A stretch of 41,373 bases of DNA from a virus, in IMG/VR virus record IMGVR_UViG_3300028908_000132, positions 1-41,373 of that record; one strand, 5' to 3'. Position 1 is the first letter of the stretch, and every line of letters starts with the position of its first letter. Shown here piece by piece: positions 1-41,373 of the stretch. The notes below the pieces were generated by a model. That model saw only the letters and a list, made by a program, of their open reading frames with translations. It had not been told where the DNA came from and ran no database searches. Both the position numbers and the translations under genes were made by a program.

Positions 1-127
1 CACGCTGCGATCGCATGTCGGCTGGACTCACGGCCCAGCTGGCTGGCCGATCGTCCAGCAGCGGCCGAGTATTCGCGTTTGTCGTGATCTGGCTCGCGGC
101 GGGCGGTGCGGTCGCGTCGCTGGTCGC
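1..127. repeat. Left copy of 127-bp terminal direct repeat
   Basis: Bases 1-127 are identical to 41247-41373. The repeat joins a single reading frame across the contig ends, so the molecule is circular or terminally redundant with a unit length of 41,246 bp. A 127-base overlap is also the largest k-mer used by a common short-read assembler, so it probably marks an assembly join and not a biological terminal repeat of that exact size. Confidence 0.95.
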
Positions 128-2882: not shown

Positions 2883-3186
2883 TGGGGGTCTCCTTCTCTT
2901 CGTTGTCTGGCGGCGTTTCCGGGATCGGCGACACGCAACGGTAACGCAACAAATCAATCAGCCGCTGCCCATCGTCAGGGTGGACGACATATTCCCGGGA
3001 ACCGCCTGCCGAGATATCCGACTCGGCGGCCACCACCGTGACACGCCGCTCGCCGCGTCTCTGGTCTACGTAGACCGCGATAATATGGTCGATCGACTGC
3101 AGTACTCGGCACTCAACATGCGCGAGCCGCAGTTCGACCCATTCGCCGATCGGCAGCCGCAGCGATCTCCATTCACCTGGCGCCAT
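2869..3186 (-). CDS. Hypothetical protein (105 aa)
   Basis: Start 3186 has an AAAGGAGG site six bases upstream; an adjacent ATG at 3189 is too close to it. The protein is beta-rich in residues 10-75 and ends in a charged, Pro/Glu-rich tail. It overlaps both neighbours in the leftward operon. No family recognised. Confidence 0.65.
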   Translation of the reverse strand: MAPGEWRSLRLPIGEWVELRLAHVECRVLQSIDHIIAVYVDQRRGERRVTVVAAESDISAGGSREYVVHPDDGQRLIDLLRYRCVSPIPETPPDNEEKETPNGTR

Positions 3187-4024
3187 CATTCGCCTCCTTT
3201 CTGGCCGGCCACTGCTCATGCAGCACGCCATCGAGTTCGCGATCCCGCTTCGCGTTGACCTGCTTCAAAAAGAACGGTACGCCCGCCTCTGCGCACTGGT
3301 CGCGCAGTGACCGGAACCAATCGAGCTTCGCCGGCCGCGCGCCCGGGCCAGTCTCGGCGCCGGCGATCACCCATCTGATGCGCCGCATGTTTGCGCGCTC
3401 TTCATGGTTGCACGGACAAAAGAGGTGCCCCGGATCGGCACCAATGACATCGCAGCAATCGACCGGAGTAACCGCGCCGCACGAGCAATAGTGATGTTCG
3501 TCGGGCCAAAACGCGAAGTCGATTGCTTCTAGCAGCGGCTCGAACGACACGAAGTGCAATGCGGCCGGCGTAGTAAGCAGTTCCGGTATGCGCTCAGCTG
3601 CCTCTAGCGAGTTCTCGACACTAACGCCGAGCCAGACGTTATCGAGCGGGCTATCCGCAACCCACTTTGTCCTAAAAAACTCGCGTGCCCGTTCGGGGCG
3701 CTTCGTCAGCACGAGGAAAGTGTGCCGCGGATTCGCGAGCATCGTGAACCAGGCCGATTCAATGAACCCAAACGGTACGTCCTTGTGGAACAAGTCGCCC
3801 ATCGAGCACACGAACACCAGTCGCGGCTTGCGCCAGCGAAACGGCGCGCTCAGACGATCGCGGTGCAGCATGACCGCGAACGGCGACTCGGCCGGATATC
3901 CGCAGCGGCCGCGCAACCGGCGCGCCATTCGCTCGGCGTAGCAGTTGGCGCAACCCGGACTGATCTTCGTGCAGCCCGTGACCGGGTTCCACGTTTCCTC
4001 GGCCCACTCAATCCGCGTTGGCAT
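3173..4024 (-). CDS. Phage Gp37/Gp68 family protein (DUF5131)
   Basis: A 283-residue member of the phage Gp37/Gp68 (DUF5131) family, found in many phages and bacteria and lacking, as far as I recall, a settled biochemical function. The N-terminus has the family signature IEWAEETWNPVTGCTK with Cys18, Cys25 and Cys28 in a C-x6-C-x2-C cluster that suggests metal or Fe-S binding, radical SAM-like in spacing. Further conserved stretches are the CSMGDLFH region, the LTKRPER region and a C-terminal GAETGPGARP stretch. A Cys/His-rich insertion (residues about 185-220, with CSC, CC and CPC) may bind zinc. The start at 4024 is chosen from a GGGGA site and loss of family similarity upstream. Confidence 0.85.
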   Translation of the reverse strand: MPTRIEWAEETWNPVTGCTKISPGCANCYAERMARRLRGRCGYPAESPFAVMLHRDRLSAPFRWRKPRLVFVCSMGDLFHKDVPFGFIESAWFTMLANPRHTFLVLTKRPERAREFFRTKWVADSPLDNVWLGVSVENSLEAAERIPELLTTPAALHFVSFEPLLEAIDFAFWPDEHHYCSCGAVTPVDCCDVIGADPGHLFCPCNHEERANMRRIRWVIAGAETGPGARPAKLDWFRSLRDQCAEAGVPFFLKQVNAKRDRELDGVLHEQWPARKEANDGAR

Positions 4025-4184
4025 GACACGTCCCCTTTCTCGCAGCGCGCCGCCGGGCCTTGCGCTCCTCCGCGCGGCAGTGCTGCTCCCAGTGCTCCTG
4101 ACACAGCAGCGTGCCGAGGTAGCGCAGGTACGCCGGCCGTCGGCACCCGGGCCGGTCGCATGTCTCGTCATCACGGTTTCTCAC
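4008..4184 (-). CDS. Small zinc-finger-like protein (58 aa)
   Basis: A GTG start at 4184 preceded by GGAGG six bases upstream gives a 58-residue protein with Cys9-x4-Cys14 and Cys28-x2-His31, a plausible single zinc site, followed by a basic Arg/Lys-rich C-terminus that could bind nucleic acid. It overlaps the stop of the preceding gene and the start of the Gp37/Gp68 gene. The competing frame here (an N-terminal extension of the Gp37/Gp68 gene) lacks family similarity. Confidence 0.65.
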   Translation of the reverse strand: MRNRDDETCDRPGCRRPAYLRYLGTLLCQEHWEQHCRAEERKARRRAARKGTCHANAD

Positions 4185-4473: not shown

Positions 4474-4702
4474 TGGCGTCATCCTTTCCCGGCCGCTCGC
4501 TGTAGCGCAGGCCGCATGCGTCGTACCACTCAAAGTCCCGGCTCGTCGGTTGCCACGTCGTAATCGAGTATGTTCCGTCGCGCCAGCAGATCACGTACCG
4601 CGGCACGCCGTCGCGGCGCTGGAGCTTCAGCGCCTTGCCGCACGCGGTCATGATCGCCGCGCTTCGCTCGATCGCGGGGATGCTCATGCTGGAATCACTC
4701 AT
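4466..4702 (-). CDS. Hypothetical protein (78 aa)
   Basis: The ATG at 4702 overlaps the preceding stop (ATGA), deciding the start. Residues 28-60 look like a small beta-sheet rich in aromatic residues (RYVICWRDGTYSITTWQPT). No family recognised; probably an early accessory protein. Confidence 0.65.
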   Translation of the reverse strand: MSDSSMSIPAIERSAAIMTACGKALKLQRRDGVPRYVICWRDGTYSITTWQPTSRDFEWYDACGLRYSERPGKDDANG

Positions 4703-5019
4703 GCCGCACCCCCATGGTCGATAACCGCCCCGCAGTTGGGGCAGATCACCACGCCGGCCGGCGGTGCCGGCGGCTCGTCTTCCGCGACCTGCTCGACCGC
4801 CGGCGGGGGCGCGGCCGTATCCCGCTTCTTCTCCGTGCGCGCCAGCCAGTAGTCTTCGGCCGTGTCGTGGTAGACCACCCGGACGATCCGGGCGTGCCAG
4901 CGCTTCCCGCCGCGCGTCTGCACGCGGACCTCGTCTCCGGGCCGTGGCGGCTCCCCAGTCCCCCGCACGCCCCACTCGCCCGTCTTCAGTTTTGCCGGTG
5001 TGCAATCACACACACACAT
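4699..5019 (-). CDS. Zinc-ribbon-type hypothetical protein (106 aa)
   Basis: The start at 5019 is preceded by AAAGGAGG. The protein begins MCVCDCTPAK, encoded over a short CA/GT repeat, has a beta-rich middle (residues 25-60), a Pro/Ala-rich linker, and ends in a CPNC motif typical of one half of a zinc ribbon. The N-terminal cysteines could supply the other half. Next gene starts by ATGA overlap. Confidence 0.65.
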   Translation of the reverse strand: MCVCDCTPAKLKTGEWGVRGTGEPPRPGDEVRVQTRGGKRWHARIVRVVYHDTAEDYWLARTEKKRDTAAPPPAVEQVAEDEPPAPPAGVVICPNCGAVIDHGGAA

Positions 5020-5033
5020 CGGCGCGCCTCCTT

Positions 5034-5111
5034 TCAGATCAGCACCGCCAGCGCGATTATTGCTGCGATGGCAAGCCAAATCACGTTCTCGGGGTCGCGG
5101 TATCGACTCAT
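5034..5111 (-). CDS. 25-residue single-pass membrane microprotein
   Basis: MSRYRDPENVIWLAIAAIIA begins the peptide: a charged N-terminus of nine residues followed by one membrane helix running to the C-terminus. Its ATG (5111-5109) overlaps the stop of the preceding gene as ATGA, so translation is likely coupled. It ends 15 bases before the next start. It is too small for most gene callers. Confidence 0.65.
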   Translation of the reverse strand: MSRYRDPENVIWLAIAAIIALAVLI

Positions 5112-5518
5112 GCGCGCCCTCCAGTGGCCTGGGCGCCAAGCCCCAGAGCCTCGGCCGCCTTGTCCCCGGTGACGATCTCGCCAGTCTTACGCCAATGGGC
5201 AATTGCGAGCTTGGCCAGCCTGGCGCATGGTGCTGCGGTGCGATACTTGTAGAGCTCGCCGACTGTTCTGACATCCCCCGAAGGCATCAGCACGCGAAGC
5301 GTGTACCTCCGGCCGTGGTCGTAAGGTTTGTGATCGAACCCCGTGCCACAATCCCTTTCACTGCTCGTGAACCAGATCGGATCTTTCGGCCTGTGGTCCG
5401 GGTTGTGGATCGCGCCAATACGGGAGTTGAAGAACCGCAGCGTATCGGCAGAGAACCAATGTGCGGCCAGCGGGTGCCGGCGCTCGACCTGGAGACGTTT
5501 GAGATAGCGGATGTTCAT
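5108..5518 (-). CDS. Conserved phage hypothetical protein (136 aa)
   Basis: The start at 5518 follows an AGGAGG site eight bases upstream. The segment WFSADTLRFFNSRIG, then FTSSERD and RRYTLRVL followed by VGELYKY, resembles a small protein common in phage early regions (I recall it as a DUF7447-type family; name from memory). No catalytic motif. It precedes the 25-residue membrane protein with an ATGA overlap. Confidence 0.65.
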   Translation of the reverse strand: MNIRYLKRLQVERRHPLAAHWFSADTLRFFNSRIGAIHNPDHRPKDPIWFTSSERDCGTGFDHKPYDHGRRYTLRVLMPSGDVRTVGELYKYRTAAPCARLAKLAIAHWRKTGEIVTGDKAAEALGLGAQATGGRA

Positions 5519-5532
5519 CGGTTTGCCTCCTG

Positions 5533-5922
5533 TCATGATGTGATGCGCTCCACGCGGAACCGCCACAGCCGCGCGCCGGCGGCCCGCATGTCGCGCTCGG
5601 TGTACTCCTCCCCGCGGGGCGGCTGCCCGCGGAACACGATCGCCCAGACCTCGCGCGCCTCGGCGGCCAGGTCCAGCGGGAGGTTGCCGACGACGATGCT
5701 ATCACGCACCATCGCCGGCGTGACCTCGCGCATGACGGGCGCATACTCGCTCTCGATTGGCCCGTCGCCGGCGTCCGGCAGCGCCAGGCCGATCACCTGC
5801 CCGTCACGCATGACGGGCCACAGGCCGAGCTCGTCGGCCACCCAGCGCGCCGCCCCGGGGTGGCGGGTAACAACGATCATGTCCGACAGCGCCGAGCGAG
5901 CCACCTCGCGCAACGGGGTCAT
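5533..5922 (-). CDS. Csx16-like protein, candidate viral ring nuclease (anti-type III CRISPR)
   Basis: The 129-residue product matches the Csx16 (VVA1548) family pattern by inspection. There is an N-terminal VVTRHPGAARW (residues 17-27), a central beta-strand plus loop IVVGNLPLDLAAE (76-88), and a C-terminal RGEEYTERDMRAAGARL (103-119) followed by a final beta-strand. Csx16 is an accessory protein of type III CRISPR loci, and I recall recent work placing it among ring nucleases that degrade cyclic tetra-adenylate. Here it has no CRISPR locus and sits in the early leftward operon of a phage, so protection against type III signalling is the natural inference. Residues about 35-70 are longer than in the usual family of about 100 residues. 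The start overlaps the preceding stop (ATGA). Confidence 0.72.
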   Translation of the reverse strand: MTPLREVARSALSDMIVVTRHPGAARWVADELGLWPVMRDGQVIGLALPDAGDGPIESEYAPVMREVTPAMVRDSIVVGNLPLDLAAEAREVWAIVFRGQPPRGEEYTERDMRAAGARLWRFRVERITS

Positions 5923-6422
5923 GGCGACACCTGCTCCCCCACGAGCTTTTGCAGCCGCGCGTACGCGCGAGCGGCAGCGCCGCCGGCTGGCGGGGCCAGG
6001 TCGCAGATGATCTCGTGTACCATCTCTGCGACGAGCGGCCACGCCGCCATGTCGGCGGCGTCGAACGCCGGCCAGAGCTGATCGGCGGCGCGCTCGATCA
6101 GCTCGTCAGGCTCGCCGCGCTCGAGCGCCAGCAGCCCGCCATAGGGCGTATCGTCAGGCTGAGGGAGCAGCAGCACGAGCGTAGGCGTGCCTGGGATTGG
6201 CGTCTCGTGCACGTCGTGCCCGTGCCCAGCCGCTGCCACGGCGTCGTGGATGTGGCGGAAGGCGTCCAGTAGTGCGGCTGGACGGGCGATGAGGATATCG
6301 CCGTCGAGCTCGGCACCCACATTCTGGGCGATCTCGGCGGCGCCAGCCTCAAGCAAGTAGTGCTCGGTGGCGTCGTATCCGAGGTCATCCGGTTGGTCCG
6401 CGACCCAGAGTTTCGCGCGCAT
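5919..6422 (-). CDS. First gene of the leftward operon, hypothetical protein (167 aa)
   Basis: The start at 6422 has AGGAGG seven bases upstream. Acidic, Ala-rich soluble protein; a beta-rich segment around residues 55-95 (ending LVLLLPQPDD) is followed by helices to the C-terminus. As the promoter-proximal gene directly before the Csx16-like gene (ATGA overlap), it is likely made early and in amounts similar to that protein. No family recognised. Confidence 0.7.
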   Translation of the reverse strand: MRAKLWVADQPDDLGYDATEHYLLEAGAAEIAQNVGAELDGDILIARPAALLDAFRHIHDAVAAAGHGHDVHETPIPGTPTLVLLLPQPDDTPYGGLLALERGEPDELIERAADQLWPAFDAADMAAWPLVAEMVHEIICDLAPPAGGAAARAYARLQKLVGEQVSP

Positions 6423-6530: not shown

Positions 6531-6558
6531 AGTATACACTAGTTTTGCGGGCTGTCAA
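6531..6558 (-). promoter_or_regulatory. Near-consensus sigma70 promoter of the leftward operon
   Basis: On the minus strand TTGACA (6558-6553) and TATACT (6536-6531) are separated by 16 bases. The predicted transcript starts near 6524, about 100 bases before the first gene. The spacer contains CCGCAAAA, also found in the spacer of the promoter at 31615. Confidence 0.85.
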
Positions 6559-7298: not shown

Positions 7299-7730
7299 AT
7301 GGCGTCGCTTTCTGATGGCGAGTTTGAGCGGTTACGGAAGTTGGCGCGGAAGGTGCGTGGGCGATCGGCGACTGAGGTTGAGGAGATACGTTGGGCGAAG
7401 GATTCGGCGTTGATGCCGTTATCGGTCCTTGAGAAGAATGCTGGCGAGGTACCGAGTCCTGGCGCTTTGTTGTGGTGGCGGATGGCGGTTGAGTGTCCGG
7501 ACGAGTTCATGAAGAAGGTTGCGACGAAGTTGTTGCCGAGTCGGGCGCAGTTGGATTCGATGCAGGGGTTTGGAGGTGGATCTGGCTTGGCGACAGCGGC
7601 GTTAGCGATAGCTCACTTGGAGCAGTTTCATCGTGAGTTGGAGTCCAGCGGAGAGCACGGCATCGTCGATCGAGGCGGTGGCAACGGCGACGGCATCGGG
7701 CGGATTGGATCCGATAACGTCTCCGGCTGA
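7299..7730 (+). CDS. Putative terminase small subunit (143 aa)
   Basis: Probable DNA-recognition subunit of the packaging motor, called mainly because it is directly upstream of, and overlaps, the large terminase gene. The N-terminal 55 residues are helical and basic (possible DNA-binding part). The segment SPGALLWWRMAVECPDEFMK followed by KLLPSRAQ resembles small conserved proteins next to TerL in podovirus-like genomes. The C-terminus is Gly/Asp-rich. There is no ribosome binding site before the ATG; with the promoter at 7264-7291 the mRNA may be leaderless. Third codon positions here and in the terminase gene favour G and T, unlike the C-rich third positions downstream. Confidence 0.55.
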   Translation: MASLSDGEFERLRKLARKVRGRSATEVEEIRWAKDSALMPLSVLEKNAGEVPSPGALLWWRMAVECPDEFMKKVATKLLPSRAQLDSMQGFGGGSGLATAALAIAHLEQFHRELESSGEHGIVDRGGGNGDGIGRIGSDNVSG

Positions 7731-39702: not shown

Positions 39703-40704
39703 GTGCCACCGCCCAGCCCTGCATCAGCGCAATTCGGCCGGATCCCCACCGATGCGGTCACAAGCGGCGCGTTGTCCCAACTGCCGAGAGTGGCCGTCCT
39801 GACGTACATCGCCCTTTGTGTTCATGTCGATCCCGACTGGACGGCGCGGCCGTCAATCCGCCGCCTCGCCAGGATCGTCGGGGCCTCCGATCGCCACGTC
39901 CGCCGCTCGCTACGCGCGCTCGTTGACGCCGGCCTGGTCGCCGTCGATCGCCGCAAGGGCCGACCCAGCATGTACACGATCCTACCATCCGGCCCCTCGC
40001 GAACCCCGGACATCCAGATGTCCGGACTTTCGGCGCCACCGGTGGCGAACCCCGGACATCCAGATGTCCGGACATCTGGTGTCACCCCGGACATTTTGGA
40101 GCGCAACCCCGGACATCCAGATGTCCGCCGAACAGAAGAACAGAAAGAGACCAACCAGCAATCGAGCGCAAGCGCAATTCGTAGGAGTGCTGCTGGTGGC
40201 GTTGCGAAAGAAAAAGACACGCACGCGGAATCCGTCCGGCTGCTCGTCGAGGCCGGGGTAGGCGACCGGGCCGCGAAGCGGCTCGCGGCGGCGACCGAGC
40301 CGGACGTGATTGCGGCGGCCGTGGAGGTCGCCGGCCGGCGGCGCAACGTGGTCAATCGGCCCGGCCTGATCGTGTCGCTGGCGACCGATCCACCGGGTGA
40401 CGTGCTCGACCTGGCCCAGGAGCTGGCGCAGGAGCGGAAGCGGCGACGCCGGCGCAGACGCGACGCCAAGCGGCTCGCTGACGCGCGGCGAGTGGTCGCC
40501 TCGATCCCGCCGGCGGAATGGCCGCAGGTCGTCGAGCGCGCCTGCTCGCTGATCCGCGGGCGCTGGCCGACCGCGCGCCCCGGGCCGGAGTTTGACAAGA
40601 TCGGGCAAGACGCGCAACGTCTTCCACCGTCGTTACTTACAGCGGCGAGGGAAGCGTGGGAACGAAACGGCTTCGAGAAGAAGGAGGTGTGCAGTGGCCG
40701 CTAA
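39703..40704 (+). CDS. Winged-helix replication initiator-like protein (333 aa)
   Basis: Residues about 25-90 are a HTH_36-type winged helix (SIRRLARIVGASDRHVRRSL, then LVDAGLVAVDRRKG). Residues about 100-142 are encoded by palindromic DNA repeats read in more than one frame and look disordered. The C-terminal part has a basic stretch (residues about 242-260) and helices. A wHTH N-terminus plus internal iterons is the layout of lambda O-type initiators, which bind the origin in their own gene and load the host helicase. No phage helicase or loader is recognisable. GTG start; GAGG seven bases upstream. Confidence 0.72.
   Translation: MPPPSPASAQFGRIPTDAVTSGALSQLPRVAVLTYIALCVHVDPDWTARPSIRRLARIVGASDRHVRRSLRALVDAGLVAVDRRKGRPSMYTILPSGPSRTPDIQMSGLSAPPVANPGHPDVRTSGVTPDILERNPGHPDVRRTEEQKETNQQSSASAIRRSAAGGVAKEKDTHAESVRLLVEAGVGDRAAKRLAAATEPDVIAAAVEVAGRRRNVVNRPGLIVSLATDPPGDVLDLAQELAQERKRRRRRRRDAKRLADARRVVASIPPAEWPQVVERACSLIRGRWPTARPGPEFDKIGQDAQRLPPSLLTAAREAWERNGFEKKEVCSGR
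40001..40127. repeat. Iteron cluster, probable replication origin inside the initiator gene
   Basis: CGGACATC-CA-GATGTCCG, preceded each time by ACCC, occurs at 40007-40024, 40053-40070 and 40110-40127. Half copies lie at 40069-40078 and 40088-40094. CCAGATGTCCGGACATCTGG at 40060-40079 is a 20-bp palindrome. The first copy is read as TPDIQMSG and the others as PGHPDVR, so the DNA and not the peptide is conserved. Confidence 0.75.
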
Positions 40705-41194: not shown

Positions 41195-41373
41195 ATGGGC
41201 ATCGACATGGACCAAACTTGCACGAGACGCCGGATTCCGGCGGCGCCACGCTGCGATCGCATGTCGGCTGGACTCACGGCCCAGCTGGCTGGCCGATCGT
41301 CCAGCAGCGGCCGAGTATTCGCGTTTGTCGTGATCTGGCTCGCGGCGGGCGGTGCGGTCGCGTCGCTGGTCGC
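41195..41373 (+). CDS. 5' part of the membrane/lipoprotein-like gene that continues at position 1
   Basis: The ATG at 41195 follows AAAGGGG by about six bases and lies 10 bases after the preceding gene. Its first 22 codons are in frame with the ATG at 41261, which equals position 15 of the window. The complete gene therefore has 277 codons in the circular genome. A gene called only on the linear contig would miss the true start. Confidence 0.8.
   Translation, partial: MGIDMDQTCTRRRIPAAPRCDRMSAGLTAQLAGRSSSSGRVFAFVVIWLAAGGAVASLV
41247..41373. repeat. Right copy of 127-bp terminal direct repeat
   Basis: Exact copy of bases 1-127. It lies inside the coding sequence that starts at 41195 and continues at position 1 of the window. 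The coding frame is kept through the junction, which supports circular closure. Confidence 0.95.

Follow-up and report, generated by a model that had tools for sequence, protein, structure and literature searches.

A divergent Csx16 homologue with a replaced central histidine in a 41-kb phage genome, a candidate counter-defence protein against type III CRISPR signalling

Why does a phage without CRISPR machinery of its own encode a relative of Csx16? Type III CRISPR systems sense phage RNA and in response produce cyclic oligoadenylates, mostly cA4, which switch on toxic effectors. The locus lies in a viral contig of 41,373 nucleotides (IMG/VR record IMGVR_UViG_3300028908_000132), the whole of which was analyzed and is referred to here as the window. 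The first-pass annotation had proposed that a small leftward gene in it encodes a new phage ring nuclease of the Csx16 type. The ring nuclease activity of the family is indeed published: experiments showed that cellular Csx16 cleaves cyclic oligoadenylate with specificity for cA4 (Hoikkala et al. 2025, PMC12409355), and a counter-defence reading of the viral gene is therefore reasonable. Our data confirmed that positions 5922..5533 on the minus strand encode a divergent Csx16 homologue.

The open reading frame, its strand and the motifs VVTRHPGAARW, GNLPLDLAAE, RGEEYT and GARL were found as first described (Table 1). The codon-position GC of the gene (0.75/0.52/0.92) is coding-like, and translation could alternatively begin at Met15, near which the N-termini of relatives fall. 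Its placement as the second gene of a tight leftward operon was likewise borne out, with the ATG overlapping the stop of the preceding 167-aa gene (ATGA), a Shine-Dalgarno-like AGGAGG between its own stop and the DUF7447 gene, and a sigma-70-like promoter upstream; three promoter-like sites were found in the operon region, against 0.8 expected. An antisense ORF at 5000-6010 (+) was rejected as a real gene, since the DUF7447 and Csx16 matches both lie on the minus strand and its own codon-position GC is flat (0.64/0.65/0.71). The same leftward block contains a DUF5131 gene at 3173-4174 (-) (PF07505, E=1.1e-80; phrog_2045), which also scored, below threshold, against a model for radical SAM mobile pair proteins.

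Table 1. Features of the csx16-like gene, its product and its operon in the window
Feature	Position	Strand	Basis or remark
csx16-like gene, 129 aa plus stop	5533..5922	-	PF09652, PADLOC, coding-like GC
Alternative start Met15, giving 115 aa	5880	-	
TRHPGA, residues 19-24	5851..5868	-	His21 in 64/64 rows, Arg20 in 62/64
Insertion of ~25 aa, residues 34-59, predicted beta-hairpin	5746..5823	-	Alignments and AlphaFold2 model
Glu66 in place of central His	5725..5727	-	His in 61/64 Csx16 rows
GNLPL, residues 79-83	5674..5688	-	G, L and P invariant, 64/64 rows
RGEEYT, residues 103-108	5599..5616	-	Csx16 RGxE(L/Y)(S/T) motif
Operon gene 1, 167 aa	5919..6422	-	No family match
Operon gene after the csx16-like gene, 136 aa, DUF7447 (PF24239)	5108..5518	-	E=4.6e-11
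Sigma-70-like promoter TTGACA-16-TATACT, upstream of the leftward operon	6531..6558	-	11/12 bases, consensus match alone

The protein matched PF09652 (Cas_VVA1548) at 32.1 bits (E=1.3e-7), above the Pfam gathering cut-off of 25, and the PADLOC Csx16 model at E=1e-8. PF09652 was the sole family returned by a Pfam search at E<=1, in which no AcrIII-1/Crn2 match was found, and a PDB sequence search with the protein gave no match. Scored with an HMM built from 37 cellular Csx16 sequences, it reached 38.1 bits, whereas the best of 20,000 shuffled versions gave 10.1, and the PF09652, PADLOC and shuffle scores together rule out chance similarity to Csx16. The first-pass annotation had looked to profile searches for confirmation; PF09652 and PADLOC supplied it, but the strict equivalog TIGR02620 did not, the protein reaching 14.9 bits against an NCBIfam cut-off of 46.35. 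A likely reason for this low score is an insertion, which divides the match to the cellular Csx16 HMM in two. In profile-profile comparison, the three-member subclade formed by this protein and those of two viral contigs, L075 and L060, matched cellular Csx16 with a probability of 99.2% (E=2.6e-19) and the other viral Csx16 at E=6e-24.

Residue counts and the tree were taken from a family alignment of 64 rows and 99 columns. VVTRHPGAARW occupies residues 17-27 of the protein, GNLPLDLAAE residues 79-88, RGEEYTERDM residues 103-112 and GARL residues 116-119. As judged from the alignment, three of the four conserved Csx16 motifs are present, namely RH (R20, H21), GxLP (G79, L81, P82) and RGxE (R103, G104, E106). 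What the first-pass annotation missed is Glu66 at the position of the near-invariant central histidine. This histidine is absent from three rows only, with Glu in the window protein and in L060 and Gln in L075, and the window protein retains a single histidine, His21. The alignment from the central position to GxLP is almost gap-free, and entirely so among the viral rows, so the loss is unlikely to be an alignment artefact.

With the central histidine lost, homology does not by itself imply cleavage in addition to binding, and to this extent the ring nuclease proposal is weakened. Phage sponge proteins act against other cyclic-nucleotide defences, and the window protein might similarly keep its pocket, lose the conserved histidine and bind cA4 without cutting it. 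That each of the three subclade proteins has another residue here (E, E and Q) but keeps RH, GxLP and RGxE is consistent with such sequestration, as is the precedent of Csx15, another ring nuclease family described as binding cA4 well and cutting it very slowly (PMC13148439). We nevertheless consider a sponge unlikely, since His21, Arg103 and Glu106 are still present, and the same paper argues that type III messenger output is so large that sponging may be fruitless. Removal of cA4, probably by cleavage, is the reading towards which we lean.

The first-pass annotation had also pointed to an unusually long stretch at residues 35-70, and this is real. It corresponds to the insertion, for which AlphaFold2 predicted a beta-hairpin with strands at residues 35-39 and 42-49. 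A similar insertion occurs in one other viral contig, L075. Because it adjoins the altered histidine position, the hairpin and the His-to-Glu/Gln change could jointly fit the pocket to another substrate, such as cA3, cA6, SAM-AMP or a CBASS nucleotide. This appears improbable to us, as L060 has the histidine change but not the insertion, and another ligand is without positive evidence.

The preferred reading, a Csx16-family protein acting on cA4, agrees with the AlphaFold2 model (pLDDT 93.5, pTM 0.86; 30-row alignment), which predicts a Rossmann-like core. In the structure comparison proposed at first pass, its strands and helices follow one another as in a canonical Csx16 model (L014, predicted in the same way), with the beta-hairpin added. 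Foldseek searches do not confirm this fold. Neither the window model nor the canonical model had a significant match in the PDB: the canonical model ranked the Crn1-type ring nuclease Sis0455 (7z55) best at a non-significant E=0.05, and the window model gave weak Rossmann and CARF-type matches only. Since canonical Csx16 is also without a significant Foldseek match, the missing match does not count against the window protein. According to PMC12409355, Csx16 moderately resembles PDB 2J6B, a viral Crn2 homologue, in structure.

The genome around the gene is that of a phage. The exact 127-bp direct terminal repeat (1..127 = 41247-41373) indicates that the 41-kb contig is probably a complete, circularly assembled phage genome; assemblers also commonly use a word length of 127. 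The window encodes a terminase large subunit and has matches to a major head protein and a tape-measure protein. The product of 7299-7730 (+), upstream of the terminase large subunit, had a sub-threshold EFG_C match (E=2.9e-4) and is probably the small terminase subunit. In a host look-up the window DNA had no match among phages, and only a distant terminase relative came up. In line with the first-pass annotation, array searches and RAMP and Cas10 searches found none in the window, and a phage-borne type III system was rejected as an explanation. The gene lies outside a type III CRISPR locus, and a location within one is not expected because this copy is viral. Three perfect 23-nt repeats at 40002-40127, irregularly spaced (46 and 57 nt) inside an HTH_36 gene (ORF 39703-40704, +), look like iterons and not a CRISPR array. 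An HTH_36 gene with such internal repeats is reminiscent of replication initiators of the lambda-O type, which contain origin iterons.

To what extent such viral copies recur was addressed by motif scans of IMG/VR with codon-restricted patterns, the ORFs then being scored against the Csx16 HMM. These identified 18 further contigs with Csx16 (28-84 bits); four additional pattern matches (L063, L076, L077 and L080) were discarded for want of HMM support. A phrog_2 terminase match was present in four of the 18, L075 carries portal and primase genes, and L060 carries tape measure and helicase genes. RAMP and Cas10 searches of the complete records of the 18 contigs, several of which are fragments, and of the Methanobacterium viruses Drs3 and PhiF3 found none. 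Cellular Csx16 loci had a CRISPR-like array nearby in 25 of 39 cases. Stand-alone Csx16 was also found on the plasmids pDEIPR02, pMESIL02 and P-10H_0; the records of the plasmid copies had no Cas10 match, and two had conjugation-type (MPF_T) typing. A single-protein IMG/VR search with the window protein found no close relatives, and one with the Drs3 protein found no match. Among neighbouring genes, the only similarity between the window and the other viral loci was a match of 43 residues between window 4699-5274 and L070. Against 398 Pseudomonadota genomes, the subclade profile returned canonical Csx16 with the histidine, plus one fragment that lacked Csx16 support; against 395 genomes of another phylum, the viral-branch profile returned the Csx16 locus already known and a single partial match, which was weak.

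Several plasmid copies have features of their own. On pMESIL02 (L007 and L082, MPF_T typing), BLAST located three Csx16 places, two of which form part of longer ORFs, of 261 aa and at least 572 aa, and have Gln replacing the Arg of the RH motif. On pDEIPR02 (L081:6001-6285, MPF_T typing), the stand-alone copy lies among small genes near two single-stranded DNA-binding protein genes, a setting reminiscent of anti-defence regions on plasmids. Plasmid pSC2 (L009:1228-1776) encodes a protein of ~182 aa annotated as Csx16, whose Csx16-like part has no clear RGxE and no central His.

The 64-row tree comprised 40 CRISPR-type cellular sequences, 18 viral ones (the window protein included; L074 was too short and was omitted), four from plasmids and two from methanogen viruses. 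The window protein, L075 and L060 formed a clade with support of 100/96, and the 22 viral and plasmid rows were set apart from cellular Csx16 with support of 99/90, whereas the Drs3 and PhiF3 sequences grouped, weakly placed, with CRISPR-linked cellular ones. This split of mobile from CRISPR-linked Csx16 may partly reflect sampling, because proteobacterial queries supplied the cellular sequences and codon-restricted patterns the viral ones, and because the alignment has only 99 columns. The divergence of the window protein and its long end branch would suit a passenger gene, either a Csx16 fold retained for some other function in the phage or a decaying copy acquired from the CRISPR locus of a host. 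Such a passenger seems very doubtful, as the reading frame is intact with a coding-like GC3 of 0.92, the motifs are conserved, the gene holds a position in an operon, and homologues recur in 18 other viral contigs, most of them placed outside the CRISPR-linked Csx16 sampled here.

Viral Csx16 is not new as such. Among 28,114 phage genomes, PMC12409355 counted two with Csx16; for AcrIII-1, the published count is 36 genomes. Drs3 (AXN53384.1) and PhiF3 (QGZ14607.1) carry Csx16 genes that are already so annotated and are presumably the two cases counted there. With published phage Csx16 and annotated methanogen-virus copies, the viral occurrence was thus known in principle. The first-pass proposal therefore stands in its homology and phage context but not in its novelty. 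What is added here are the 18 further viral contigs and, in the tree, the branching of 17 of them, together with the window protein and four plasmid copies, away from sampled CRISPR-linked Csx16.

Collectively, our data moderately favor a divergent Csx16-family protein that counters type III signalling by removing cA4. The family matches, the AlphaFold2 model, the recurrence in viruses without type III genes and the promoter-led operon position argue for this reading, and Glu66 in place of His, the missed TIGR02620 cut-off and the lack of a significant Foldseek structure count against it. The protein most likely binds cA4, and we would expect, with somewhat guarded confidence, that it also cuts it; that it removes or captures a cyclic nucleotide signal by any route is clearly probable. 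In the proposed scheme, the phage would make the protein early, the protein would form a dimer, and the RH, GxLP and RGxE motifs would line the cleft in which cA4 is held. The bound messenger would then be removed, probably by cutting to linear products as by cellular Csx16, and the lowered cA4 level during infection would benefit the phage.

Because the scans, although codon-restricted, added 18 contigs, viruses may use Csx16 against cA4 signalling more widely than the published counts suggest. The subclade without the histidine provides a natural mutant set for finding the cA4-cutting residues of Csx16 and bears on whether viruses sequester or destroy the messenger. A tentative wider possibility, to which we give less than even credence, is a long-standing virus and plasmid branch of Csx16, one sub-branch of which, its histidine replaced, would disarm the alarm by other chemistry, by sequestration or by acting on another signal.

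Compared with cellular Csx16, the window protein has the same RH, GxLP and RGxE motifs, in the same order and spacing, and the same predicted element order, but it differs in the Glu for His, the ~25-aa beta-hairpin insertion, a segment before RGxE that is a few residues shorter, and a gene without CRISPR neighbours. The GARL tail is common to the window protein and cellular Csx16 and is missing in most of the viral and plasmid branch. With L072, L068, pDEIPR02 and pMESIL02, it shares a mobile-element context without Cas10, an LPLxLAAEA-type centre and the same side of the 99/90 branch, although these relatives keep the histidine. Drs3 and PhiF3, which are tailed viruses, likewise carry a stand-alone Csx16-family gene, whereas their proteins keep the histidine and lack the insertion, and their hosts are methanogenic archaea. 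AcrIII-1, the viral Crn2, belongs to a different protein family, yet the task proposed for the window protein, viral removal of cA4, would be the same.
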